Source: a virus
Reading direction: 5' to 3' (one strand)
Virus record (IMG/VR): IMGVR_UViG_3300042475_003206
Coordinates: 1 to 62,810 of that record
DNA length: 62,810 bases
Shown: one piece after another, positions 5,055 through 62,728 of the stretch
Layout of the letters: each line of letters begins with the position of its first letter
Numbering within the stretch: position 1 is the stretch's first letter
Translations under genes and position numbers: made by a program
Notes under the pieces: generated by a model
Database searches by the model: none
Told to the model about the DNA's origin: nothing
Seen by the model: only the letters and a program-made list of their open reading frames with translations

Positions 5055-5071
5055 GTTGGGATTTTTTTTTT
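5042..5071 (+). terminator. Rho-independent terminator after the DUF5522 gene
   Basis: ATCTCAAC and GTTGGGAT form an 8-base stem (with G-T pairs) around the loop ATTAA, followed by an unbroken run of T. The stem includes the gene's own TAA stop codon. It closes the replication and reductase run before the tail genes. Confidence 0.8.
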
Positions 5072-5075
5072 GGTA

Positions 5076-5082
5076 TATTTAT
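5076..5082 (+). promoter_or_regulatory. TATTTAT element upstream of the amidase
   Basis: TATTTAT sits between the terminator and the amidase ATG, 17 bases before the start codon. Coming right after a terminator, a new promoter is expected here, which makes this one of the better-placed copies of the element. Confidence 0.45.
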
Positions 5083-5099
5083 ATAATAAACTAATTGTT

Positions 5100-5888
5100 A
5101 TGAATCTACAAGAAAACCTTAATAGGATAAAAGAATTAATGGGGGTTATTAATTTAATTAGTGAATCTGAAGAAGACCAGATTGTTAATAAAGAATTTGA
5201 AATTTCAAATAATCATGATGACGATGTTGTTAAATTACAAAAAATACTTATTGATAAAAATTATGATATTGGAAGTTATGGACCAGAAAAAAATGGTGTA
5301 GATGGTAAATATGGTGACTTAACAAAAAAAGCTCATGAATCTTTAATTTCTGGAATAACTCCCGATAAGTTTAATAAAAATTCCAAAATAGATAATGTTG
5401 ATAATAATATAGAAGATAATAAATCTACAGTTGATTTGTCACAAATTAATGATGTTTCATCAAGTTCAACATATAAAAGAAAAAATGAAAAAATTGGTGC
5501 AAAATATTTTATAATACACCACACGGCTGGTGGTAAAAAACAAGAAGATATTGTAAATATTTTAAACAATAGAGGGTTAGGAATTCAATGGGTTATAGAT
5601 CGAGAAGGAAAAATATTTCAAACCTTACCTTTAAAGGGTCGAGGAGCACATATTAAAGCAATTGGAAGACAAGCCCCAAAAGATGTGTCAAATTCTACCG
5701 CTGAAGGTGTTGAAATAATTGCAAATGATGATGACGATGTTTTAGAAGTTCAATGTAAAGCGGCTTTAATCTTAGTTAAAAAATTAGGATATTCTTATGG
5801 TCAAATTTATGGGCATGGTGAGGTTTCAAAAAATAAACAACCAACTGAAGGTCAAAAGTGTAAAACATATATAAAAAATAATTTGTGA
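5100..5888 (+). CDS. N-acetylmuramoyl-L-alanine amidase with peptidoglycan-binding domain
   Basis: Predicted zinc amidase cutting the bond between muramic acid and the peptide in peptidoglycan. A PG_binding_1-like segment (VVKLQKILIDKNYDIGSYG, then GVDGKYGDLTKKA) occupies about residues 40-85. The Amidase_2 domain spans about 135-262, with the zinc histidine pair in FIIHHTAGG, a second-ligand region IYGHGEVS, and a cysteine in EGQKC that matches the third ligand of T7-lysozyme-type enzymes. The N-terminus (NLQENLNRIKELMG, then LISESE) resembles N- and C-terminal tags of other proteins in this window. The start at 5100 was chosen because an earlier TTG would lie inside the terminator. Beside the gp25 gene, a tail-associated lysin is likely. 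Confidence 0.88.
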   Translation: MNLQENLNRIKELMGVINLISESEEDQIVNKEFEISNNHDDDVVKLQKILIDKNYDIGSYGPEKNGVDGKYGDLTKKAHESLISGITPDKFNKNSKIDNVDNNIEDNKSTVDLSQINDVSSSSTYKRKNEKIGAKYFIIHHTAGGKKQEDIVNILNNRGLGIQWVIDREGKIFQTLPLKGRGAHIKAIGRQAPKDVSNSTAEGVEIIANDDDDVLEVQCKAALILVKKLGYSYGQIYGHGEVSKNKQPTEGQKCKTYIKNNL

Positions 5889-45544: not shown

Positions 45545-46138
45545 ATGGAAGTGATTGAAACTCTAATACCATCAAACTTAAAAAAAACAAAAGATAAAAA
45601 ACAAATTGTTTTAACTCACACTTCTAGAAACATATTTGATTATGTAACATCTTTAAAATTAAGATTTAACGGTGACCCAATAAAACTACCACATTATTTA
45701 GTCTCAAGAGATGGTAAAGTTATAAGAACAATTGATGATTTAACAAATAGTAATTTTACAATTAATAAGGTTGTTAATGAAAAATCTATTGTTATTTGTT
45801 TAGAAAATTTAGGTTGGTTAGAAAAAGTTTTATTAAAAAATCATCACACTAATTGGATTGGTAATATTTATAAAGAGAAAGTTTTTGATCGTAAGTGGAG
45901 AGATTACTTTTTTTGGCAACCATATACGGATATTCAGTTGGAAAAAACAGCGGAATTATGTAAGGAGTTGTGTAAAAAACATAAAATAAAGTTGAAATTT
46001 ATTGGTCATAATACCAAAGTAAAAGGTGTTGAATCTTTTTTAGGTATCATCACCAAATCCAACTTTGACGATTTTGTAACGGATTTAAGTCCGGCATTTG
46101 ATTTTGAAAAGTTTAACAAATTATTGAATTATGAATAA
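45545..46138 (+). CDS. AmpD-like N-acetylmuramoyl-L-alanine amidase (lysis)
   Basis: 197 residues, the second amidase of the window. Amidase_2 features: LTHTSRN with the first zinc histidine, HYLVSRDGKVIRTID (the strand and turn usual in this family), ICLENLGWL, FIGHNTK with the second histidine, and TDLSPAFDF, matching AmpD's DPGPAFDW, whose aspartate is the third zinc ligand. No signal peptide, so it needs a holin-like pore or other release. Followed by two spanin-like membrane proteins at 46700 and 47055, which supports an endolysin role. It overlaps the next gene by 8 bases. Confidence 0.82.
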   Translation: MEVIETLIPSNLKKTKDKKQIVLTHTSRNIFDYVTSLKLRFNGDPIKLPHYLVSRDGKVIRTIDDLTNSNFTINKVVNEKSIVICLENLGWLEKVLLKNHHTNWIGNIYKEKVFDRKWRDYFFWQPYTDIQLEKTAELCKELCKKHKIKLKFIGHNTKVKGVESFLGIITKSNFDDFVTDLSPAFDFEKFNKLLNYE

Positions 46139-48414: not shown

Positions 48415-49959
48415 ATGAATAAAGAGCAATATATCAGATCAAGATTTAAAGATTTACTTAACGAAACTTTAGAGGAAAGAGCGAATGACATTAAAAAGAA
48501 TTTTTCTAAAGAAGTTAGGCTTAACCCCAAAAATAAATTTGACTACATAGAAGAAGGCAAAAGTATGTGCGAATCATGTGGTGGAATGATGTCGGAAGGT
48601 AAATGTAACGAGGGGTGTAATCTAGAAGAAAATAAAAGTATGTGCGAATCATGTGGTGGAGAAATAAACGAAGGTGAAGCATGTGAAGAATGTGGAAGTA
48701 TGTATAAGGGAGACATTAGAGAACTTGGTGGTATGGATGACGGACACCCAAGATTTGGAAAAGAAAACTTTAACCAAATGACTAAAGATCAAGTTGAAAG
48801 ACTTCTTAGAGGTGATGATGAAGAAGATGAAGATGAATACGATGATTTTGAATTTGAAACTCCTGTGAGAGATGCAATCAGATCTCATAAAGGTAGGTTC
48901 GAAACTCCTGTTAGAGATGTAATCAGATCTCGCGGAAATAGATATAGAGATCTTGAAGATGACATGAGCGAAGGTGTTAATTTTGAAATAGATGAAAAAC
49001 TATATGGTAATCAAAGTAGAATAGACAAAAACAAGAACAACAGAATTGATAGTGAAGATTTCAAAATGTTAAGAAAACAACAAGATGAAGAACAACTTTA
49101 TGAAATTGATTTTGAAAAAGAAGAAAACACTGAAGGTAATGCTTTTACAGGGGCTTTGTCTAACGCTAAAAAACAAAACAAAGATGAATTTGAAGTTGAC
49201 GGTAAAAAATTTAAGGTTAAAGAATCAATACTATATACTGAATCTGATTTACTTGATCTTATTGAAAATTTAGTGATTGAAGAAAAGAATACATTTAAAA
49301 AATCAGAACCAAAAGGATATAAAGAATACGAAAGAGTGCATAATGCAGATAAAAAAGAAAATGATAATTATCTAAAAAGCGTTGCTAAAAAAATGACTGA
49401 TTATTTAAAAGGATCGTCAGATTCAGGATCTAAGTATGAAATGAAAGAAACCAAAAAATTTCCAACTGAAAATGGTGGAATGAAAAAAGGAATTAGAAAA
49501 AAATATACACCATCAGATGCTGTTGACGAATATATTGACGCTTTTTCTTATCCAGGACAAACTAACTTGGTTTATGATGAAATCAAACCTAATGATGAAA
49601 AAATTAAAGGTCAATTAGTTGGAAGTAGTACTAACGGAAACGCACAAGTTGATAAAGACGGTAACGCTTTAGGTAATGTTGTACCAAGTAAAGTTGGGGA
49701 GAAATTCTATAATAATTTCAAAGATAACTTATATGGTCAAGAACAGATGAATGCGTCTTATAAAAGACAACCACAACCTATTGATCAAGCTGGTGAAGAA
49801 ACTGAAAGAGGAACACTTAAGTCTAAAAAAGGTAAAAAAACATCTCAAAGTATTTTAAACAAGTTGGAAGAAAGTAAAAACATTAAACAGGAAACTCAAT
49901 TAAATGAAGAGTTTGGTAGAATGCAAGAGTTAATGGGATATAGTAGAAAAACCCAATAA
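48415..49959 (+). CDS. Repeat-rich acidic protein, probably virion or head-core
   Basis: 514 residues. N-terminal tag-like MNKEQYIRSRFKDLLNE with an L-x-E site; two CESCGG knuckles (from exact 27-base copies) plus CEECGS suggesting a zinc ribbon; an acidic block (DDEEDEDEYDDFEFE); two FETPVRD[AV]IRS repeats; then a long, charged, low-complexity stretch. The C-terminus NEEFGRMQELMGYSRK resembles the N-terminus of the amidase at 5100 (NRIKELMG). The composition resembles scaffold or internal head proteins. It is followed by a terminator. Confidence 0.7.
   Translation: MNKEQYIRSRFKDLLNETLEERANDIKKNFSKEVRLNPKNKFDYIEEGKSMCESCGGMMSEGKCNEGCNLEENKSMCESCGGEINEGEACEECGSMYKGDIRELGGMDDGHPRFGKENFNQMTKDQVERLLRGDDEEDEDEYDDFEFETPVRDAIRSHKGRFETPVRDVIRSRGNRYRDLEDDMSEGVNFEIDEKLYGNQSRIDKNKNNRIDSEDFKMLRKQQDEEQLYEIDFEKEENTEGNAFTGALSNAKKQNKDEFEVDGKKFKVKESILYTESDLLDLIENLVIEEKNTFKKSEPKGYKEYERVHNADKKENDNYLKSVAKKMTDYLKGSSDSGSKYEMKETKKFPTENGGMKKGIRKKYTPSDAVDEYIDAFSYPGQTNLVYDEIKPNDEKIKGQLVGSSTNGNAQVDKDGNALGNVVPSKVGEKFYNNFKDNLYGQEQMNASYKRQPQPIDQAGEETERGTLKSKKGKKTSQSILNKLEESKNIKQETQLNEEFGRMQELMGYSRKTQ
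48559..48660 (+). repeat. Exact 27-base dispersed repeat
   Basis: The same 27 bases, beginning AAAAGTATGTGCGAATCATG, occur at 48559-48585 and 48634-48660 and code KSMCESCGG. Complete identity including third positions shows recent duplication. Confidence 0.9.
48850..48930 (+). repeat. 48-base period repeat coding FETPVRD
   Basis: Two 33-base copies (48850-48882 and 48898-48930), differing at four positions, code FETPVRDAIRS and FETPVRDVIRS. The flanking bases are related but diverged. Confidence 0.75.
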
Positions 49960-54502: not shown

Positions 54503-55882
54503 ATGTCTTTAAGATTTACCAACCTATTAAGGGACCTTATTGTTGAAAGTTCAAGATTTCAAGTATTGTTCGATAAATTTGTTAAACCAAAAGAAAAAGG
54601 ACAAAGAGGTTTCATGCCTTTTGAAACTTTATTCGCACTTATTGTTGCCGACCCAACTACAAAAGTTCCTGAAGGAATGGATATTGATAATGTTAAACCT
54701 GATCAAATGGAAAAGGTAAAAATTGGAAAATATGCTCAGTGGTTAATCAAAAACTTTATGACACCTAAGTTACCGGCAGATCATCCTTTAATGGTTAGTG
54801 ATCCACAATCAAGTCAATACAAACAAGCATTGACGCAATTTCAATCTCTTTTCATGGAAGATTTATATAAGGTCACAATAAATCTTCAAAAATATGAAAG
54901 ATTTAAAAATAGGTTAGCACAAGAATATAGGGATATAAATAAATTAAGTATTGAGACTTTACAAGATCAAGTCAAAGATTTTAGTTTAGAAAAAACTAAA
55001 GCAACCGCTGACGAGAAAAAAGAAGCGTCTGTAACATATGCTCACCCTGGGGCTAACATTGTTTATAGAGGTCAAGATTGGACTGTTGCTAAAATTTCAG
55101 ACAAAGGTCCATTAGGTAAAGAAGCGGCATGTTTCTATGGTGGATCTCATAATGAAGGAAGACGAGGGGAAACTACTTGGTGCACATCATCACCTGGTCT
55201 TAGTTGGTTTGATAGATACATCGGTAGAGGACCATTATATGTTGTAATTCCAAACAAAGCAAGATCATTCAAATCTTACGGAAAAGAAACAGGTGAAGTT
55301 TCAGGTTTACCAGCGGACAGATACCAATTTCACTTCCCTGATAATCAGTATATGGATGCGGATGACAGACCAATTAATTTAATTGACTTTTTAAATACAA
55401 ACGAAGAAGGTTTAAAACAATTCTTTAAGCCTGAGTTTATGTCATCATTGTCAGGTGAAAAAGGAGAAAAAGTGGCTATTGACTATCCTAGTGATTCAGC
55501 TTCTAAATTTATTGCCTTATACGGATTTGACGAATTCTTCGCTACTTTACCACAAACATTAAAAAGATTTACATTTAAAAACACATCAAAAGATAAACTT
55601 TCTTTAAATATTCCAAACGACATTGGTAGATTTAAAGAATTAACCGCAATTAATTTTGTTGGTTGTATTGCTTCTTTGCCTGACTCAATTTGTCAACTAC
55701 AAAATTTACAATATTTATCTTTGGTTAATAATCCAGACCTTCAGATGCTACCAGATTGTATCGGAAACATGCCAAACCTTATGGTTTTAAATCTTTCAGG
55801 GTCTGATCGTAACAAAGTTCTACCACAATCAATCTTAAGTAGAGAAGAAGAAGATGAAGATTTTAACTTATTTACACATTAA
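54503..55882 (+). CDS. WCT-motif protein with leucine-rich repeats
   Basis: 459 residues. The N-terminus MSLRFTNLLRDLIVES carries an L-I-V-E-S site like the tags of the genes downstream. About 1-175 is helical. About 175-305 is a globular domain with VTYAHPGANIVYRGQDWTVA, GETTWCTSSPGLSWFDRYIG, RGPLYVVIPNKARSF and YMDADDRPINLIDFLN. I recall this WCT...GPLYVVI pattern from other phage proteins of unknown function. About 345-450 holds three to four leucine-rich repeats (LPDSICQLQNLQYLSLVNNP). LRRs mediate protein binding, so an effector-like function is plausible but unproven. Confidence 0.8.
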   Translation: MSLRFTNLLRDLIVESSRFQVLFDKFVKPKEKGQRGFMPFETLFALIVADPTTKVPEGMDIDNVKPDQMEKVKIGKYAQWLIKNFMTPKLPADHPLMVSDPQSSQYKQALTQFQSLFMEDLYKVTINLQKYERFKNRLAQEYRDINKLSIETLQDQVKDFSLEKTKATADEKKEASVTYAHPGANIVYRGQDWTVAKISDKGPLGKEAACFYGGSHNEGRRGETTWCTSSPGLSWFDRYIGRGPLYVVIPNKARSFKSYGKETGEVSGLPADRYQFHFPDNQYMDADDRPINLIDFLNTNEEGLKQFFKPEFMSSLSGEKGEKVAIDYPSDSASKFIALYGFDEFFATLPQTLKRFTFKNTSKDKLSLNIPNDIGRFKELTAINFVGCIASLPDSICQLQNLQYLSLVNNPDLQMLPDCIGNMPNLMVLNLSGSDRNKVLPQSILSREEEDEDFNLFTH

Positions 55883-55906
55883 AGTAGATTATTTAAAACA
55901 TTATAA

Positions 55907-55913
55907 TATTTAT
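55907..55913 (+). promoter_or_regulatory. TATTTAT element upstream of 55929
   Basis: In TTATAATATTTATTAATAAA, 15 bases before the ATG; it starts the run of tagged proteins. Confidence 0.4.
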
Positions 55914-55928
55914 TAATAAAATAAAAAT

Positions 55929-56975
55929 ATGAACAGAAGAATTTTAATATCGGAAAATGAAAGATCTAGAATTTTAGGTCTACACGAAAATCGTAGAATG
56001 AAAGAATGGGGATTGATTAACGAACAAGTTATACCAACCGGTTATGACTCGATTGAAGCTTGTAAAGCGGAAGCTCCAAAACTTGCTGCTAGTAAGGTAT
56101 TTGCAGGACAGTCTTGGGATGTTGTTAAGGCAAAATGGGTTGAGTCTAACTGTAATGGAACAACTCCTTGTAATGTAGGAACGGAAGCATCAAATATTAA
56201 TTTAAGAAAGGCAATGTGTGAAGGAACCTTTACTATGGGTGCACCTGCGGCTGCCACACCATCAGAATATACTGTTTACAAAGGTGGAGTCCCATCTAAA
56301 ATGACTGTTGATCAGATTAGTCAAGGACTTGCAGATGGTACTATAAAACCAACTGATAAAGTGTGGGACATTAGTAAAGGTCAAGGTTCTGATGCCATAG
56401 TTCCATTATCAACTTTAACTTTAGACACTAAAATACAAGCATCAATTAAAACTATTGCTCCAGAATTAGCGGGAGAAGAAAAAACATATGAAATATCTGC
56501 GGATGGTAGAGCTGCCGCAATAAAATATACAAAAGAAACATTAACAAAGGCGATCGCAGATGGCACTTTGAATAAAGATTCGGCATATGTTATTATTGTA
56601 GACCCAGCAACACAAGCAAAATCATATCAAAAAGTAATGCTTAACGCTGACTTAGTTCCAATTATTAATTCGGCTTCTGGTGCTCAACCTATAGCGGCAG
56701 AAAGAAAGTCAACCAATATTCCTGAACTTGATGCTTGGTTGAAAGGACCAATTGGATCTGCATGGGATAAACTTACAGACCCAAAACAAAAAGAAAGTAT
56801 GTTTGACTCATTTGAAAAAACCGACCCAACAATTACTAAATTAAAAGATACGGTAGGTAAGGGACCATTAAGATCTGCGTTAGGAATGGCTGCTGACACA
56901 GGATTTGGTAGAGGATTACAAAGGTTAAGAGGAAAAGTTGGAGCGGCAATAACTGGTAATCAACCAGTTGCTTAA
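55929..56975 (+). CDS. Tagged protein with GYF_2-like domain
   Basis: 348 residues. The tag MNRRILISENERSRILGLHE is the longer version of the motif in the following genes. Residues about 115-160 (YTVYKGGVPSKMTVDQISQG, LADGTIKPTDKVWDISKGQ, PLSTL) resemble a GYF_2-type domain, which binds proline-rich peptides; a second, weaker copy follows at about 193-245 (TKETLTKAIADGTLNKDSAY). There are three cysteines before it. The C-terminus is Gly/Ala/Arg-rich and basic (GFGRGLQRLRGKVGAAITG). Probable virion or packaged protein. Confidence 0.75.
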   Translation: MNRRILISENERSRILGLHENRRMKEWGLINEQVIPTGYDSIEACKAEAPKLAASKVFAGQSWDVVKAKWVESNCNGTTPCNVGTEASNINLRKAMCEGTFTMGAPAAATPSEYTVYKGGVPSKMTVDQISQGLADGTIKPTDKVWDISKGQGSDAIVPLSTLTLDTKIQASIKTIAPELAGEEKTYEISADGRAAAIKYTKETLTKAIADGTLNKDSAYVIIVDPATQAKSYQKVMLNADLVPIINSASGAQPIAAERKSTNIPELDAWLKGPIGSAWDKLTDPKQKESMFDSFEKTDPTITKLKDTVGKGPLRSALGMAADTGFGRGLQRLRGKVGAAITGNQPVA

Positions 56976-57002
56976 TAATCTATCTTATTTTTATATAAAA
57001 AA

Positions 57003-57224
57003 ATGATTATTTCAGAGCAACAAATTAGAAAAATAATTAAAAGAGTGATTTTTGAAGATAGAAAAGAATCTATGTTAGAAAAAATGAAAAGAAAATTAAA
57101 AGGAATATCCGACGATAAATTAATTTATAATATGGAAAATGAATTACCTTGGGATTGGAAAGGATCAAAAGAGGCATACTTTGAAAAACACGAAGATAGA
57201 AAATATTCAAAAGGATCAAACTAA
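57003..57224 (+). CDS. Small tagged basic protein
   Basis: 73 residues. MIISEQQIRKIIKRVIFED is the tag in a short form, leading into a basic, helical body (EKMKRKLKGISDDKLIYNME, NELPWDWKGSKEAYFEKH). No known domain. Small basic bodies with such tags recall T4 internal proteins. It has 27 bases to the upstream stop and 18 to the next start. Confidence 0.7.
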   Translation: MIISEQQIRKIIKRVIFEDRKESMLEKMKRKLKGISDDKLIYNMENELPWDWKGSKEAYFEKHEDRKYSKGSN

Positions 57225-57242
57225 TATGTGTAATAAATAATT

Positions 57243-57833
57243 ATGAAAAACAAACTATTTTTAACCGAATCTGAAAAATCAAGAATTAGTGATTTACACA
57301 GAATGGCAATTGTTACTGAAGGTAAAAACACTTTAAATGAGGCTAATTTAGTAGACATTCAAAATTTACTAATAAAAAAAGGAATGTTGGGACAAAAAGT
57401 TGCTGACAATAAATTAGGTCCATTAACTTTAAATGCGATCTATTCTGCATTAACACAAACTCAGCCAACACAAACTCAACCAACAGGGGCTCAAGGAACA
57501 GGGACTCAAGAAACAGGGACTCCAGGAACTGGAGCTCAAGTACCACCAACTCAAGGAGCGCCAGTATATTATCCTTGGGTAAAAGAAGGTGGAAAACCTG
57601 TTCAAAACATAATAGATGCTAAAAAAGCCGACCCAAATTTTCAAAATTGGTTAACTGAATTAAAAAAACTCACCACAGAACAATTGACCAAAATTCAACA
57701 AGACCTTAAAGCGGCTTTTTTAGAATCAGCTATAGGTGTTAAATTGGATAGCACCGAGGCATATCAACCATACATGGTTGCACTACAAACAATTAGTACT
57801 GCAATGGAAATGGTTAAAAAACCTCTGGTTTAA
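57243..57833 (+). CDS. Tagged protein with PG-binding-like domain and TQP/GTG linker
   Basis: 196 residues. Tag MKNKLFLTESEKSRISDLHR. Residues about 38-65 (VDIQNLLIKKGMLGQKVADN, KLGPLTLNAIYSAL) look like a PG_binding_1-type helical fold. A linker (about 66-103) has TQTQPTQTQPTGAQ and TGTQETGTPGTGAQ repeats. The C-terminal helical domain (NFQNWLTELKKLTTEQLTK) follows. A cell-wall-binding virion protein is plausible; a packaged protein is also possible. The gene is followed by a strong terminator. Confidence 0.72.
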   Translation: MKNKLFLTESEKSRISDLHRMAIVTEGKNTLNEANLVDIQNLLIKKGMLGQKVADNKLGPLTLNAIYSALTQTQPTQTQPTGAQGTGTQETGTPGTGAQVPPTQGAPVYYPWVKEGGKPVQNIIDAKKADPNFQNWLTELKKLTTEQLTKIQQDLKAAFLESAIGVKLDSTEAYQPYMVALQTISTAMEMVKKPLV

Positions 57834-57892
57834 ACAACACCAATAACACATGTGTAACCTAAATAGTGGTAATAAATCAAACTTAAATAAGA

Positions 57893-57920
57893 ACCCTCAC
57901 TTCGGTGGGGGTTTTTTATT
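57893..57920 (+). terminator. Rho-independent terminator with UUCG loop
   Basis: CCCTCAC and GTGGGGG (one T-G pair) form a 7-base stem around the very stable TTCG tetraloop, followed by TTTTTTATTT. Confidence 0.9.
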
Positions 57921-57928
57921 TAACAAAG

Positions 57929-57935
57929 TATTTAT
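57929..57935 (+). promoter_or_regulatory. TATTTAT element upstream of 57941
   Basis: The motif lies between the terminator and the ATG at 57941, five bases from it. The promoter for the tagged operon 57941-60360 must be here. Confidence 0.45.
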
Positions 57936-57940
57936 CTTAT

Positions 57941-58498
57941 ATGAAAATAGTTATATCTGATAACCAATATAGTCTTTTAAAAGAATCAGTTGCCATTAAA
58001 AATATTGAGGGAATTAAAAATCATTGGAAAAACCAATTAAAAAAAGGTAAAAAAATTAGATTTGATAAAGAAGACTTAGAATTTTGGGGTATTACTACCA
58101 GACAAGAAAAATTTTATGCTCAAACGGCTTTTCAGGAATTAGTCGGAGATGAGGCGTTTACTGAAAAATTCATTAAAAACTTATTAAATAAAACATTTTC
58201 AACAAAAGATTTTAACGATATAATTAATATTGGTGGTTATGATTTTGAGTGGATAATAACTGAAATGGAATATCGTGATTTTGATTTCTATTTATATGGA
58301 AAAACATTACCGGGAGGAACTGTTACTCTTATGGATGGTAGAAACTTATCTTTAGATGAAGCAACAAATGACGAAGATCTATATTGGGAAATACAAGAAG
58401 AAGTTAATGGTGTTGTTCAAGACTGTATGGACAAAATAATTTTACCTGTTACAGGGTATGAGGTAGAAGTATCATCAATAGTAATATCGGAAGAATGA
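57941..58498 (+). CDS. Tagged unknown protein
   Basis: 185 residues. Tag MKIVISDNQYSLLKES. The body has YAQTAFQELVGDEAFTEKFI and FDFYLYGKTLPGGTVTLMDG. No signal peptide, no membrane segment. The start at 57941 was chosen because an upstream in-frame TTG lies within the terminator. The TGA overlaps the next ATG (ATGA). Acidic, soluble body of unknown fold. Confidence 0.75.
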   Translation: MKIVISDNQYSLLKESVAIKNIEGIKNHWKNQLKKGKKIRFDKEDLEFWGITTRQEKFYAQTAFQELVGDEAFTEKFIKNLLNKTFSTKDFNDIINIGGYDFEWIITEMEYRDFDFYLYGKTLPGGTVTLMDGRNLSLDEATNDEDLYWEIQEEVNGVVQDCMDKIILPVTGYEVEVSSIVISEE

Positions 58499-58899
58499 AA
58501 ATAATAATATCTGAACAACAATATGTAATGTTATCTGAGTCAAAATTAGATCCAATGCAAAATCTTATTAACATGGCTTTTGATGAGGTAAAAGAAAAAT
58601 GTGAGGGAGGTTCTTATGTAAGGTCACACCACAATTACATATGTGACCCAATAGAAATGATTGAAGAAATAAAGGTGGTAGATGTATCAAAAACAACGTC
58701 TATGGGTTACCTTGAAAAAAAAGAATTATCTCAAATGCACATTACCGTTGATATTCATCTTGAATCTATATATTTATTTTACGATTTAGATAATTTTATT
58801 TATCAGTTACAGGGGGAAGCAAGAAACATATTAGGTGGAAGTATTGTATCTATATCAATAGGAGAAGTAATCAATATAAGAAAAGAATTTAACTGGTGA
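58495..58899 (+). CDS. Tagged unknown protein
   Basis: 134 residues. Tag MKIIISEQQYVMLSES. The body contains YVRSHHNYICDPIEMIEEIK, IHLESIYLFYDLDNFIYQL and GGSIVSISIGEVINIRKEF, suggesting an alpha/beta fold with a helix between strands. Overlaps both neighbours by four bases and one base respectively. Function unknown. Confidence 0.75.
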   Translation: MKIIISEQQYVMLSESKLDPMQNLINMAFDEVKEKCEGGSYVRSHHNYICDPIEMIEEIKVVDVSKTTSMGYLEKKELSQMHITVDIHLESIYLFYDLDNFIYQLQGEARNILGGSIVSISIGEVINIRKEFNW

Positions 58900-59474
58900 T
58901 GAAAATTATATTAACTGAAGATCAATATAAGAATCTTTTTGAATCCAATTTTGAAAAAAACAAAAGGTTGGTGGGAAAAATGTGGGATGAAGGTATGAAC
59001 TTGGGTGAGATGTCATCGTTGATTGGTTTAGATGAATCTCAAATAATATTACTTCTTAAAGATAAAAATATAAAAATTGATTGTAAATTTGCTGAGGATT
59101 TAGTCCTAACTCTTATGTATAGAACTGATTTTATTAATAAAAATTATAATTTCAACAATGGTCAAATGTTTCTAAACTTAAATTGGGGAGGTTCTAGTGG
59201 GTCTGTAGCATTTGAGTTTAATGATAAGGAATATAAGTTAACAGGATGGGCAACACCTTATTGGGGTGGTGATTGTGAAACTCCTGTTGAGGGTAATTAT
59301 TTTGAAAATAAAAAAACAGATGAATATGTTAATGAATACGGGAATTCAGATAAAAAAATAGAATACACACCATCAAGTTTTAACTCAATACAGGAACTTA
59401 TTGATTTTTTAAATAACGATTACCCTAAACAATTAATCAAACCAATAAAAGAATTGATTGAAGGTTATATTTAA
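58899..59474 (+). CDS. Tagged unknown protein
   Basis: 191 residues from the ATG at 58899; a GTG one codon earlier would only add a methionine. Tag MKIILTEDQYKNLFES. A helix-turn-like segment follows (KMWDEGMNLGEMSSLIGLDE, SQIILLLKDKNIKID), reminiscent of a small DNA-binding fold, then a beta-rich part (LNWGGSSGSVAFEFNDKEYK, ATPYWGGDCETPV). The end is acidic. Six bases to the next gene. Confidence 0.75.
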   Translation: MKIILTEDQYKNLFESNFEKNKRLVGKMWDEGMNLGEMSSLIGLDESQIILLLKDKNIKIDCKFAEDLVLTLMYRTDFINKNYNFNNGQMFLNLNWGGSSGSVAFEFNDKEYKLTGWATPYWGGDCETPVEGNYFENKKTDEYVNEYGNSDKKIEYTPSSFNSIQELIDFLNNDYPKQLIKPIKELIEGYI

Positions 59475-59479
59475 AATAT

Positions 59480-59776
59480 ATGAAAATTATAATAACTGAA
59501 GACCAAGTGGCGTTAATAAGAAGGTTAAGTGAGTTAGAAGAAATTCTTGATAAAATTATTAAGGTATTAAATGATGATATAAACGATAGTGGTCCGGGTT
59601 ATAAACCTGATAATTTTGGTGTTTATGAAAGGTGGGTGATGGATAGAGTCAAAAGAGAGTTTAAAAATGATAATCCAAAGATTGAATTTCCAAATCACGA
59701 TTTTATGATGTTAATGTCGGGACAATTTAACAATAAAATTAGAAAAGGTTTTAATAAAGTTAAAAAGAGAAGATGA
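59480..59776 (+). CDS. Small tagged protein
   Basis: 98 residues. Tag MKIIITEDQVALIRRLSELE. The body is helical and charged (ILDKIIKVLNDDINDSGPGY; YERWVMDRVKREFKNDNPKI) and ends very basic (KIRKGFNKVKKRR). The L-x-E site appears as LSE. Overlaps the next gene as ATGA. Confidence 0.75.
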   Translation: MKIIITEDQVALIRRLSELEEILDKIIKVLNDDINDSGPGYKPDNFGVYERWVMDRVKREFKNDNPKIEFPNHDFMMLMSGQFNNKIRKGFNKVKKRR

Positions 59777-60360
59777 AAATAATATTAACAGAAAGACAAC
59801 AGAACTTAATAACGGAAAACTTAACAGATGAGAATCTTCGTAAGTTTTGTTATCAAATTTGGAATAAACAAAAAAAGATGGGAGAAGAGCCTAATCTTGA
59901 TGATATGATTTATGATATTACGGACATAAAAAAAAATACAAGGGAAGATTACGATACTATTAGACCAATTTGGTATGAATACAATGGAGGTTATGATAGA
60001 TTATTTAAAAAACTTAAAGATGAAATTGACACTAAAGAATATAAGTTAGTTGAGGCTGAATTTGATTTGGAAACTAAAATAAAGGTTGTCCATCTTGACA
60101 TTGTAGGACATTTTGTTGAAATTATGGTTGATGTTGATCCTCGTGGAACTATAGAATTTCATGGTTGGGATGAAGAAACTGAGGAAGAATACGTGGTAAA
60201 CGACACAATAGACGCTGCTTATCATGAGGCGTTACTTAATTATGAAGGTGCCGATTTTCAAGGAATGATTAGAAGTTCAGTATATGATTTATTTTATAAT
60301 TTATTAGAAAAATACGGAATTCCAATTGATGTGGATATTGACTTAAAAGAAATTTATTAA
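59773..60360 (+). CDS. Tagged unknown protein
   Basis: 195 residues. Tag MKIILTERQQNLITEN. The body is acidic with a beta-rich core (VVHLDIVGHFVEIMVDVDPR, GTIEFHGWDEETEEEYVV) and a final helix (SSVYDLFYNLLEKYGIPIDV). The core resembles none of the families I know. Last of the tagged operon 57941-60360. Confidence 0.75.
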   Translation: MKIILTERQQNLITENLTDENLRKFCYQIWNKQKKMGEEPNLDDMIYDITDIKKNTREDYDTIRPIWYEYNGGYDRLFKKLKDEIDTKEYKLVEAEFDLETKIKVVHLDIVGHFVEIMVDVDPRGTIEFHGWDEETEEEYVVNDTIDAAYHEALLNYEGADFQGMIRSSVYDLFYNLLEKYGIPIDVDIDLKEIY

Positions 60361-60372
60361 TACTTTTTAAAT

Positions 60373-60612
60373 ATGGGACCAATCGAAAAAAAAATTTTAG
60401 AATTATCAAAAACAGAAGGACTTTCTGAAGAAACTTTAATGACTTTAACTATTTTGAAAAATCAAATTAGAGATGATGAACGAAGACTTGCAAACAATGC
60501 ATATGAAAAAGGTTTTCACGATAAAGAAATGAATCGAAAACCTACTTGGAATTACTTTGAAAATAATTATAGTAGTTATTTGTCAAATATTAAATTTGGC
60601 CAGATAAGTTAA
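60373..60612 (+). CDS. Small helical protein
   Basis: 79 residues (EKKILELSKTEGLSEETLMT, IKNQIRDDERRL-like, YEKGFHDKEMN). Helical and charged, with a tryptophan/tyrosine-rich end (TWNYFENNYSSYL). It lacks the MKII tag. It ends before a host-type promoter. Confidence 0.7.
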   Translation: MGPIEKKILELSKTEGLSEETLMTLTILKNQIRDDERRLANNAYEKGFHDKEMNRKPTWNYFENNYSSYLSNIKFGQIS

Positions 60613-60618
60613 TTTTTG

Positions 60619-60626
60619 TATCTTTG
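60619..60626 (+). promoter_or_regulatory. Bacteroidota-type promoter (TATCTTTG)
   Basis: TTTG (60595-60598), a 20-base spacer, then TATCTTTG: a full match to the Bacteroidota consensus TTTG-N19-21-TAnnTTTG. The ATG at 60631 is four bases downstream, so transcript and coding sequence would begin together. Confidence 0.7.
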
Positions 60627-60630
60627 TGAT

Positions 60631-60915
60631 ATGGAAGACTTAACTAAACTTGAATTACCCGAAATTAAAATTCTTTGTAAACAATACGGAATAGGTATTG
60701 TTGGAGATCAAAAATCTTTAATCAAAAAACTCAAATATTTCTTAGAACCTATTGGAGATGTATTAAACACGCATCCTGGAAGAAAATTAGCCAATGGTAA
60801 AAAAATTGTTGGAGTTAAAGTTAACAACCAAGAAGAAATTAATTCTATTAATAAGAAAAAGGGTCAATTTTTATATTATTCTTTGGGTTATCACTATTAT
60901 ATTGTGACAGAATAA
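60631..60915 (+). CDS. SAP-like small DNA-binding protein
   Basis: 94 residues from the ATG at 60631; a TTG at 60616 would overlap the promoter and is rejected. The first 37 residues (LTKLELPEIKILCKQYGIGI, VGDQKSLIKKLKYFL) follow the SAP helix-extension-helix pattern (Lx2Lx[DE]L...G...K...LI.[RK]L), a DNA- or RNA-binding module. The rest (GRKLANGKKIVGVKVNNQEE, INSINKKKGQFLYYSLGYHY) is basic. Transcribed from a host-type promoter, so probably an early protein. Target unknown. Confidence 0.78.
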   Translation: MEDLTKLELPEIKILCKQYGIGIVGDQKSLIKKLKYFLEPIGDVLNTHPGRKLANGKKIVGVKVNNQEEINSINKKKGQFLYYSLGYHYYIVTE

Positions 60916-60926
60916 TAAAACCATGA

Positions 60927-60933
60927 TATTTAT
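60927..60933 (+). promoter_or_regulatory. TATTTAT element upstream of 60948
   Basis: In TGATATTTATTAAATAAAA, 14 bases before the ATG at 60948. Confidence 0.4.
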
Positions 60934-60947
60934 TAAATAAAATTGAT

Positions 60948-61484
60948 ATGAGAAAACAAATACTTGAAGAACTAAAAGAGATGAGGTATCTTTTTAATTA
61001 CGATAGAGGAAAAATTATTTCTGAACAAAATCAAAACCTTAATGAAATGATTGATTTAGAAAAAGGGTCTTTTGGTTATGAAGATATGGATGATGGTAGT
61101 GAAAAGTTTCCTTCATTTAGTCCTAATGGTGATATGGATACAGGTGAAGATTTAGCACCTTCTTTTGATTCAGATGGTAATTTTTTAGGTATGGTAAAAC
61201 CTAATCGAGATGGTATGGAAGGTGATGAGGATGAATTAGAAGAAGACGCTTTTGGTGGTGATTATAAAGATGATTTAGAAGAAGAAATTGATTTTGATGT
61301 TCCTACTATGATGCCAGGGACAAAAGAAAAAGAAAGGACAATTACAAAACCTGGAACCAAACCCGATAAGGACTCACCATACAAACCTAAACCTGGACCA
61401 AAGAAAAACCCAAAAGCTAAAAAAGGTGATATGCCTGATTGGTTAAGTTTTGATGAACTTGGAATTAATCTTAAGCAAAAATGA
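60948..61484 (+). CDS. Acidic low-complexity protein, probably head-core or tagged
   Basis: 178 residues. The N-terminus MRKQILEELKEMRYLFNYDR, then KIISEQNQNLNEM, shares I-S-E-Q and L-x-E with the tags. The body is highly acidic with Asp/Glu/Gly runs (DDGSEKFPSFSPNGDMDTG, EGDEDELEEDAFGG), then a Pro/Lys linker (KPGTKPDKDSPYKPKPGPKK), and a short end (MPDWLSFDELGINLKQK). Such composition is seen in scaffold and core proteins. Overlaps the next gene as ATGA. Confidence 0.72.
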   Translation: MRKQILEELKEMRYLFNYDRGKIISEQNQNLNEMIDLEKGSFGYEDMDDGSEKFPSFSPNGDMDTGEDLAPSFDSDGNFLGMVKPNRDGMEGDEDELEEDAFGGDYKDDLEEEIDFDVPTMMPGTKEKERTITKPGTKPDKDSPYKPKPGPKKNPKAKKGDMPDWLSFDELGINLKQK

Positions 61485-62728
61485 GAAATATTAAAAAAAG
61501 ACTATATACAGAAGTAATCTCAAAAAAAAATTTATTAAGGATTATGGAAGCTCCTATTGACTACGAAGGACCTGAAAGAATGGCTGGAGATGTTGAGAGA
61601 AAAATTACGGGAAGAGAAACCCCATATCATAATTTTCCTGCAATTCCAAATATGGATAGAGACTTTATTGAGTTAATATCTTCAAAAAGATTCAAGGACT
61701 CAGTTGATAAAGTTAGAACGGCAATGGGAGATACAAGAACTATTCAAGGGGGAAACGCTCTTATGCAATTGCTGGGAACTGTGGGTCAAGCAATGCAAAA
61801 ACTTGTTATGATTCAAATGAAAAACAAAAAACAACTTGAAGACCTTGCAATTGATCTTGTTAAAAACGAATTAGGAATTCCTGAAGGAGCAATGCAATTC
61901 AAAGCCGAACTTGTGTCAAGTACTATGGGAGCAGCAGAAGGGATGCAAAGTGAGCCTGAAATGCCAAGTGAAGAAGAGGTTGAAGAATTAATGGGAGATA
62001 TGGAAAACTTTAATTTGGAAAGAGAAAAAAGAAGATTCATTAATTCACTTATTCAAGGTGCAGCTTTTAAAGGAGGACATATGTATAATCTTGTTAAAAA
62101 TGAGATCAATGACATTAATCCACAACTTATGAACCTATACGCTGTGACACAATCTTTAATGGAACATGCATATTGGATATTCCCTGACATGGAAGGAATG
62201 GCTGGCGGTGGCGGTGGTCAAATGGGCCAATCTGAAGTTGATGAAAAAACAGACCCACCAACAGTTAAAGCTAAGGCGGTTACATTCCCATTATTAGTTC
62301 ATGAATTGGTAAAGGGAGTATATGAGATTTTTGGATCACACGGATTACCTGACGACCCAAGACAACAAGAAATGATATTAAACGCTGAAGATACTTTACC
62401 TTCAGAAATTTGGGACTCAAGGTTAGGTCCTATTTTTTGGGAAAAGTTTATGGCATCATATCCTATGGAGTTGTTTGATGAAGACAAAAAACATATACAG
62501 CATTATTTGTTTATGCGATTCTCGGCATTAAATGCGGAAGAGTTCATGAAGGTATCAAAAATGATTTTAAAAGGAGATCCATTAGGGCAACAATTTATTC
62601 AAGGAATGGTCAATGAGATTGTTAAAGATCTAAAAGATAAAGACTATAACGATGCCATGGGTTATGATGAAGATGATGAAGATGATGATGATTTGAGTGG
62701 GGTTGACTTTAGTGATTTGGGACTTTAA
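61481..62728 (+). CDS. Large helical protein, probably structural
   Basis: 415 residues. N-terminus MRNIKKRLYTEVISKKNLLR, with a Y-T-E and I-M-E site. The body is alpha-helical and methionine-rich (GNALMQLLGTVGQAMQKLVM, FKAELVSSTMGAAEGMQSE) with a glycine run (GMAGGGGGQMGQ), a well-ordered part (FPLLVHELVKGVYEIFGSHG; WDSRLGPIFWEKFMASYPME; HYLFMRFSALNAEEFMKVSK), and an acidic tail (EDDEDDDDLSGVD). A virion structural protein is likely; family not recognised. Followed by a terminator that includes its stop codon. Confidence 0.78.
   Translation: MRNIKKRLYTEVISKKNLLRIMEAPIDYEGPERMAGDVERKITGRETPYHNFPAIPNMDRDFIELISSKRFKDSVDKVRTAMGDTRTIQGGNALMQLLGTVGQAMQKLVMIQMKNKKQLEDLAIDLVKNELGIPEGAMQFKAELVSSTMGAAEGMQSEPEMPSEEEVEELMGDMENFNLEREKRRFINSLIQGAAFKGGHMYNLVKNEINDINPQLMNLYAVTQSLMEHAYWIFPDMEGMAGGGGGQMGQSEVDEKTDPPTVKAKAVTFPLLVHELVKGVYEIFGSHGLPDDPRQQEMILNAEDTLPSEIWDSRLGPIFWEKFMASYPMELFDEDKKHIQHYLFMRFSALNAEEFMKVSKMILKGDPLGQQFIQGMVNEIVKDLKDKDYNDAMGYDEDDEDDDDLSGVDFSDLGL

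Follow-up and report, generated by a model that had tools for sequence, protein, structure and literature searches.

What does it mean when a run of adjacent viral genes encodes proteins that begin alike and continue differently? The question is raised by a fragment of the virus record IMGVR_UViG_3300042475_003206, 62,810 nucleotides long with a guanine-plus-cytosine content (GC) of 31.0%, which we analysed whole and refer to as the window. Eight of its genes encode proteins that start with related short peptides, here called tags. In phage T4, a capsid-targeting sequence has been shown at the N-terminus of the internal protein IPIII, is identical in IPII and is deduced for IPI, and it is cut by gp21, a protease of family S77. 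From sequence comparison we consider it probable that the tags are T4-type capsid-targeting propeptides, greatly expanded. The scale (tens of genes), the existence of several tag families and their spread are new here.

The eight open reading frames (ORFs) named in a preliminary description of the window are all present with tag-like starts: MNRRILISENE at 55929, MIISEQQ at 57003, MKNKLFLTESE at 57243, MKIVISDNQ at 57941, MKIIISEQQ at 58495, MKIILTEDQ at 58899, MKIIITEDQ at 59480 and MKIILTERQ at 59773. Those at 57941 and 58899 are read from ATG starts within slightly longer GTG frames. Among the several tag families, F1 (MKIIITExQ) is the main one of the window; F2 (RLTESDL), F3 and F4 are others. 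In the list below, and throughout, a slash marks the candidate or known cut after Glu, and bracketed coordinates are those of the tag.

55929..56975, + strand: tagged gene, 348 residues, F4-type tag MNRRILISENERSRILGLHENRRMKEWGLINE/Q (55929-56024)
57003..57224, + strand: tagged gene, 73 residues, MIISEQQIRKIIKRVIFE/D (57003-57056), recognised by eye and missed by the strict pattern
57243..57833, + strand: tagged gene, 196 residues, F4-type MKNKLFLTESEKSRISDLHRMAIVTE, then LNE/A (57243-57341)
57941..58498, + strand: tagged gene, 185 residues, F1 tag MKIVISDNQYSLLKE/S (57941-57985)
58495..58899, + strand: tagged gene, 134 residues, F1 tag MKIIISEQQYVMLSE/S (58495-58539)
58899..59474, + strand: tagged gene, 191 residues, F1 tag MKIILTEDQYKNLFE/S (58899-58943)
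59480..59776, + strand: tagged gene, 98 residues, F1 tag MKIIITEDQVALIRRLSE/L (59480-59533)
59773..60360, + strand: tagged gene, 195 residues, F1 tag MKIILTERQQNLITE/N (59773-59817)

The likeness of these N-terminal peptides in neighbouring genes (55929-60360), on which the preliminary description was built, lies far beyond chance. Scored in all pairs over residues 2-21, the eight N-termini sum to 787, compared with a mean of 430 (standard deviation 20, maximum 498) in 500 shuffles, and with a mean of 376 (maximum 466) in 500 random sets of eight taken from 56 other window genes. The tag is also wider than had been described. The 415-residue protein at the right end of the window leads to 54 related loci in IMG/VR, among them those on two large contigs, G001 (locus L032; 291,867 bases, 380 genes called) and G002 (locus L017; 272,576 bases, 351 genes called). 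Several peptide families and dozens of tagged genes per genome are found in these relatives: the strict patterns of five tag families match 37/321 proteins in G001, 30/295 in G002 and 7/65 in the window. When the N-terminal 30-mers of the 681 proteins of G001, G002 and the window are compared between different body clusters, 315 pairs score at least 50 and 203 at least 60, whereas residues 41-70 give 1 and 0 such pairs and the C-termini 2 and 0. Per genome, in counts that include some signal peptides, pairs scoring at least 45 number 134 in G001 (56/310 proteins), 60 in G002 (40/288) and 13 in Flavobacterium phage immuto (15/187), against 2, 2, 3 and 2 in four large control contigs without detected S77. 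Four of the 15 immuto proteins resemble signal peptides and two resemble tail proteins; the tags of immuto differ from those of the window group. In viral contigs, at least 471 F2-type places are confirmed among the 600 candidates listed, and in a collection of bacterial and archaeal genomes 1 among 42, with a peptide pattern not identical to that of the viral scan. One F2 tag of 24 residues has no match in INPHARED, and no paper on the tag peptides was found by tag letters or by topic in a literature that leaves out most subscription journals.

It is the peptide and not the DNA that is conserved, because about half of the fourfold sites differ. For two tag families in G001 and G002, differences are seen in 279/560 and 111/223 comparisons at such sites, and third codon positions vary most, which agrees with the codon differences that had been pointed out in the window.

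Where the tag ends is seen best in alignments holding one protein per body cluster (20 bodies for F2, 17 for F1). All 20 F2 bodies have a Glu at anchor+17, which the search pattern did not require, and all 20 have [LIVM] at P3. Column information in F2 is 3.2 bits at this Glu and then falls to 0.7, 0.5, 0.4 and about 0. For F1, a second [LIVM]-x-E lies within residues 8-36 after the anchor in 16/17 bodies, compared with 6/17 and 8/17 in internal windows; the second [LIV]-x-E that had been proposed is thus usual without being universal. The residue after Glu is often Ser (7/28), Asn (4/28) or Glu (3/28) in F1, and Glu (7/21), Ser (3/21), Asn (3/21) or Asp (3/21) in F2. A count of 11/11 Glu in F3 is circular, as Glu is already part of the F3 pattern, and we do not use it. 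The same kind of ending occurs in the protein through which the relatives were found:

61481..62728, + strand: conserved core protein, 415 residues, propeptide ending IME/A (61481-61549)

The 28 distinct versions of this protein have Glu at P1 in 28/28. P3 is L in 20 of them, I in 7 and V in 1, P2 is occupied by seven different residues, and the Glu is followed by Ala in 27 and by Asp in 1. The propeptides themselves range from similar to hardly alignable. Their apparent lengths (23-43) are left out of account, being dependent on the longest in-frame start. Two uncultured phages of 634-642 kb, LR745206 and LR756502, encode distant relatives of this unannotated core protein (26-30% over about one third of its length).

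A gp21-type prohead protease, which the preliminary description had advised looking for in the rest of the genome, is present in large relatives. In G002 the head module is T4-like, with a terminase (PF03237), a gp20-type portal (PF07230, 2.6e-76), an S77 protease (PF03420, 1e-22) and a gp23-type capsid protein (PF07068, 2.8e-73), together with an acidic protein that is scaffold-like by position and composition and has no family match; the order of the head genes is identical in G001. The positions of T4 gp21 His85 and Ser140, which we take to be the catalytic residues, are invariant in G001, G002 and immuto. In the capsid-protein alignment the known T4 gp23 cut E65/A66 coincides with INE/A in G001 and G002 and with VSE/A in immuto. 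The head operon of L173 includes an F2-tagged gene of 98 residues (L173:757-1053); it stands between the genes for the S77 protease and the scaffold and adjoins a 71-residue gene that is also present in G002. S77 passes the Pfam cut-off in 11/20 further tag-bearing contigs of at least 62 kb, including 4/5 of those above 270 kb, so that in total 6/7 tag contigs above 270 kb have it. The remaining one, G018 (274 kb), has the tag and no S77 that we could find; parallel match positions suggest that it is nearly a duplicate of G017 that breaks off ahead of the protease gene. As controls we took the 20 longest of 80 contigs listed for an arbitrary DNA word; S77 occurs in 5 of them (1/7 at 60 kb or more) and the F2 tag in 0/20. 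The S77 contrast between tag and control contigs is modest because most contigs are fragments. Taken together, the capsid-protein site, the drop of conservation at Glu and the 61481 family back the [LI]-x-E logic from which trimming had been proposed.

Near the capsid gene, other starts with this kind of ending can be seen by eye: G002:177477-177920 on the + strand starts MNNLNRIIKKVIKE/T, and G002:178439-179209 on the - strand starts MNKLDQIIKKVIKE/S. The counterpart of the latter, G001:150229-150984 on the - strand, adjoins the capsid gene and has another start with the same kind of ending, MIERTIKNILKE/A.

The bodies behind the tags had been described as unrelated, and this stands in part. 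After removal of the first 20 residues, BLASTP among the nine window bodies gives no significant match (best E 0.15). Profile comparison aligns 58495 with 59773 over 21 N-terminal columns, that is the tag alone (93%), and 57941 with 58495 over 30 N-terminal columns (70%), but 57941 with 59773 over 86 columns, beyond the tag (82%). In AlphaFold models of these last two, helices and strands follow one another in a similar order, and because of this and the profile alignment the bodies of 57941 and 59773 are probably distant homologues. In both models residues 1-20 have a mean predicted local distance difference test score (pLDDT) of 61-70, while most ten-residue blocks of the body score 83-95. 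The tag helix is separate in the 59773 model (7-15), and in the 57941 model it is continuous with a body helix (7-34). Neither 59773 (best E 0.29) nor 57941 (best E 0.31) has a fold match among solved structures. As 17 different body clusters carry the F1 tag and 20 the F2 tag, the tag is not simply the first strand of one shared fold. At least one tagged body is enzyme-like (DHH, a weak match under the Pfam cut-off).

Tags and bodies may also be exchangeable units. The tagged genes of the window form an island between two conserved border genes:

54503..55882, + strand: conserved gene, 459 residues, start MSLRFTNLLRDLIVE/S, possible propeptide 54503-54547, upstream border of the tag island
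60373..60612, + strand: conserved small untagged gene, MGPIEKKIL..., downstream border of the tag island

Both border genes are present in 22/55 loci (54 and the window), and the island between them holds 0-8 genes per phage, in total 112 genes, of which 102 are tagged by the strict pattern and which fall into 13 body clusters. Homologous bodies occur with different tags: G001_20091 (F1) and G002_251189 (F3) agree in 61% over 442 residues, L127_2903 (F2) and G002_241346 (start MNLQEQIRRILKE) in 52% over 192 residues, and L025_9371 and L021_11554 (F1) match L123_5761 (F2) at about 30% over 167-169 residues. The second of these comes from a second list, since its MNLQEQ start escapes the strict patterns; 8 pairs are on the automatic list, and several of these match only in part. 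A further 81 pairs of tagged and untagged homologues are not used as cases of tag loss. In both cases that we checked (L006 and L025) the untagged status is an artefact of start choice, because the tag sits upstream in frame.

Several observations weigh against a T4-type propeptide. The peptides are unlike the T4 sequence MKTYQEFIAE/A, with no clear homology when N-termini are compared by eye. Shared N-termini alone prove nothing, because the S77-bearing control contig G037 has 37 pairs scoring at least 45 that are of other kinds, mainly MLPFP, and no F2 match. The search of the window with PF03420 found no S77 gene, in a fragment and with a search whose control also gave no match. Among the first 16 relatives S77 passes the Pfam cut-off in 4, the two above 270 kb included, and only 14/23 tag contigs of at least 62 kb show it (the 11/20 above and 3/3 of G001, G006 and G011, which the tag search matched too). 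Some F1 orthologues have no second site close to the start, and the tags often hold two candidate Glu cut sites, which would leave the choice of a single cut ambiguous. Over all 162 orthologue pairs that G001 and G002 share, [LI]-x-E is conserved in 56/122 cases near the N-terminus against 61/130 and 132/314 further in; there is no general N-terminal excess, which makes the signal a property of the tagged set rather than of the genome as a whole. Finally, F2-like tags occur in 4/81 genomes of the family of a Prevotellaceae metagenome-assembled genome, and S77 was found in 0/4 of these, in a search whose controls were also without a match, so that absence is not proved.

Some details of G037 and of the Prevotellaceae loci can be added. 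In G037 (L295-L313), which is 371 kb long and has S77, eleven proteins start with MLPFP and one with MLPFT, at 281-300 kb. The tag loci of the Prevotellaceae family are L353, L359 (with L358), L360 and L361, with MKRTVRLTESKLKHIISETVKRILKEE (L360:8304) and MKQIIKLRESDLHRIVKESVKKIIKEG (L361:660) as examples. A transposase-like ORF (IS1595-like by eye) lies close to the tag in 4/5 of these loci, and in L358/L359 the tag is found at a Met within a longer open frame.

How do the tags compare with known systems? The T4 internal proteins are described as having N-terminal propeptides of 10-19 residues that guide them to the core before being removed; ten residues of IPIII suffice for targeting, foreign proteins follow, and IPI protects DNA after injection (PMC9026906). 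The same source suggests that such sequences may let T4-like phages bring various proteins into capsids, and the conserved targeting sequence is described in PMC9958956 as limited to IPII and IPIII. The likeness lies in a short N-terminal propeptide ending in [LI]-x-E on differing mature parts, and, in large relatives, in a gp21-type protease and a gp23-type capsid protein with a matching site. The differences are that there are several tag families here, tens of tagged genes against a handful in T4, and often two [LIV]-x-E per tag. Head proteins of T4 itself lose comparable pieces, 10 residues in gp24 (MAKINELLRE/S) and 9 in gp21 (MNEPQLLIE/T), according to PMC9958956. Together with that of gp22 (MLKEQLIAE/A, the cut being assigned from the motif) these propeptides are similar to the tags in length and ending, and that of gp24 resembles, by eye, the LIRHILKE type found here; they belong, however, to one head protein each and not to a cargo repertoire. 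In the giant phages SPN3US and phiKZ, several inner head proteins are likewise cut after Glu by a related protease. The SPN3US paralogues gp53 and gp54 are reported to have an identical 15-residue N-terminus (PMC5694885), and head proteins of this phage to be processed after A-x-E with mostly long propeptides (PMC5694885, PMC10052503). Long propeptides and another P3 residue (A-x-E or S-x-E) are what sets the two giant phages apart.

If the tags work as T4-type propeptides, then late in infection a tag ending in [LIV]-x-E would bind the growing prohead core and carry the fused protein inside. Once the prohead is complete, the gp21-type serine protease would cut after Glu and free the protein within the head; that the cut falls after Glu is suggested by the motif, the protease and the site in the capsid protein. 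The freed proteins would stay in the DNA-filled head and might enter the next host with the DNA. Entry into the head we infer from the sequences, and injection is a guess by analogy with the T4 internal proteins. The earlier proposal of a cargo tag trimmed after Glu is thus strengthened by the protease of the relatives, by the variety of body clusters behind the tag and by the [LI]-x-E logic, and the delivery part of it stays conjectural.

Other readings of the same peptides have to be weighed. The tag might recruit assembly factors to the prohead core that are later degraded or removed, making the tagged proteins scaffold helpers and not delivered cargo, and there is a precedent in the T4 core proteins gp22, gp67 and gp68, which gp21 cuts to pieces (PMC9958956). 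We find this unlikely, given the many tagged bodies, a set that varies among relatives and at least one body that may be an enzyme (the weak DHH match). Alternatively, the peptide might be an address for another site in the cell, such as the membrane, the replication compartment or the host surface, and its [LIV]-x-E end no protease site. Localisation of the tagged proteins in the head is indeed inferred, and tags do occur, rarely, in bacterial genomes without a detected prohead protease. A different address is nevertheless quite unlikely in our judgement: conservation falls off at the Glu, the fixed positions are P3 and P1 with P2 left free to vary, a site of this kind recurs in the capsid protein, and one tagged gene is situated in a head operon.

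Two readings remain. In one, the tagged genes form a single family whose first element is conserved while the bodies diverge fast, the N-terminus being the slowest-evolving part of one fold. The apparent distant relationship of 57941 and 59773, the continuous helix of the 57941 model and a body cluster (c202) that joins many F1 and F3 proteins all speak for it; the 20 F2 and 17 F1 body clusters, the alignment of 58495 and 59773 over the tag alone, and homologous bodies with different tags make it very improbable. In the other, the leader acts in translation, for instance with ribosomes that carry a phage S21, and is conserved as nucleic acid. This phage group is reported to encode its own ribosomal protein S21 (PMC9723584), but a leader of this kind is largely refuted already by the variation at fourfold sites, and a conserved peptide that ends at a fixed Glu speaks against it as well; we give it next to no credence.

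The phage group just mentioned is that of the bS21-encoding freshwater Bacteroidetes phages, with contigs of up to 296 kb and a ribosomal protein S21 of their own (Chen et al. 2022, PMC9723584). The window and its large relatives very probably belong to it, because the arrangement of an S21-like gene, the contig size and the GC of the window fit that report. The S21-like gene, identified by eye, lies on the opposite strand beside the protease, portal and capsid genes (G002:185218-185532 +, L173:2658-2840 +). A term search of the main text of PMC9723584 for capsid targeting, propeptide, N-terminus and tag came up empty. By capsid protein, Microcystis phage Mel-JY01 is the nearest isolate and Flavobacterium phage immuto the next; our examination covered immuto alone, and no paper naming it is among the ten matches listed in a literature search.

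Looser versions of the tag, also reported earlier, are real as N-terminal [LIV]-x-E, and each is weak evidence when taken singly. In the window they are IVE/S at 54503, ISE/Q at 60948, IME/A at 61481, LNE/T at 48415, ISE/S at 5139, and LQE with LTE at 46131. One of them belongs to a gene that lies between the island and the core protein:

60948..61484, + strand: acidic protein, 178 residues, possible propeptide ending ISE/Q or LNE/M

This acidic protein has no family match below E 0.1 in PHROGs or Pfam. Among the tagged proteins of the window, the sole PHROGs match below E 0.001 is that of 54503 (phrog_6688, of unknown function, 2.4e-9), whose C-terminus has a leucine-rich-repeat-like stretch (LRR_14 1.7e-6, under the Pfam cut-off), and the sole Pfam match over a cut-off is Amidase_2 in 5139-5888. 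That endolysin-like protein (2e-11) has the N-terminus MGVINLISE/S, possibly a propeptide too, and endolysin and amidase families of PHROGs match the ORF 5070-5888.

What could such tags be for? We tentatively suggest, as a possibility that we do not quite favour, a modular platform for protein delivery: a few exchangeable, cut-off tags would serve some 30-50 different proteins per genome with a fast turnover, and most of these would be packed into each head and injected. The virion cargo would then be readable from sequence, and the tagged genes found next to transposases in Prevotellaceae would represent captured or hitch-hiking cargo. If the tags are what we propose, a tag family ending in [LIV]-x-E together with an S77 protease would predict head cargo among the hundreds of uncharacterised proteins that large Bacteroidetes phages encode. 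It would turn unannotated genes into a testable list, 37 and 30 in G001 and G002 by strict patterns, or 56 and 40 by pairwise similarity with some signal peptides among them. New packaging tags would become available for loading phage heads in hosts where T4 tools fail. The cargo itself would perhaps consist of host-takeover and counter-defence proteins that act in the first minutes of infection.

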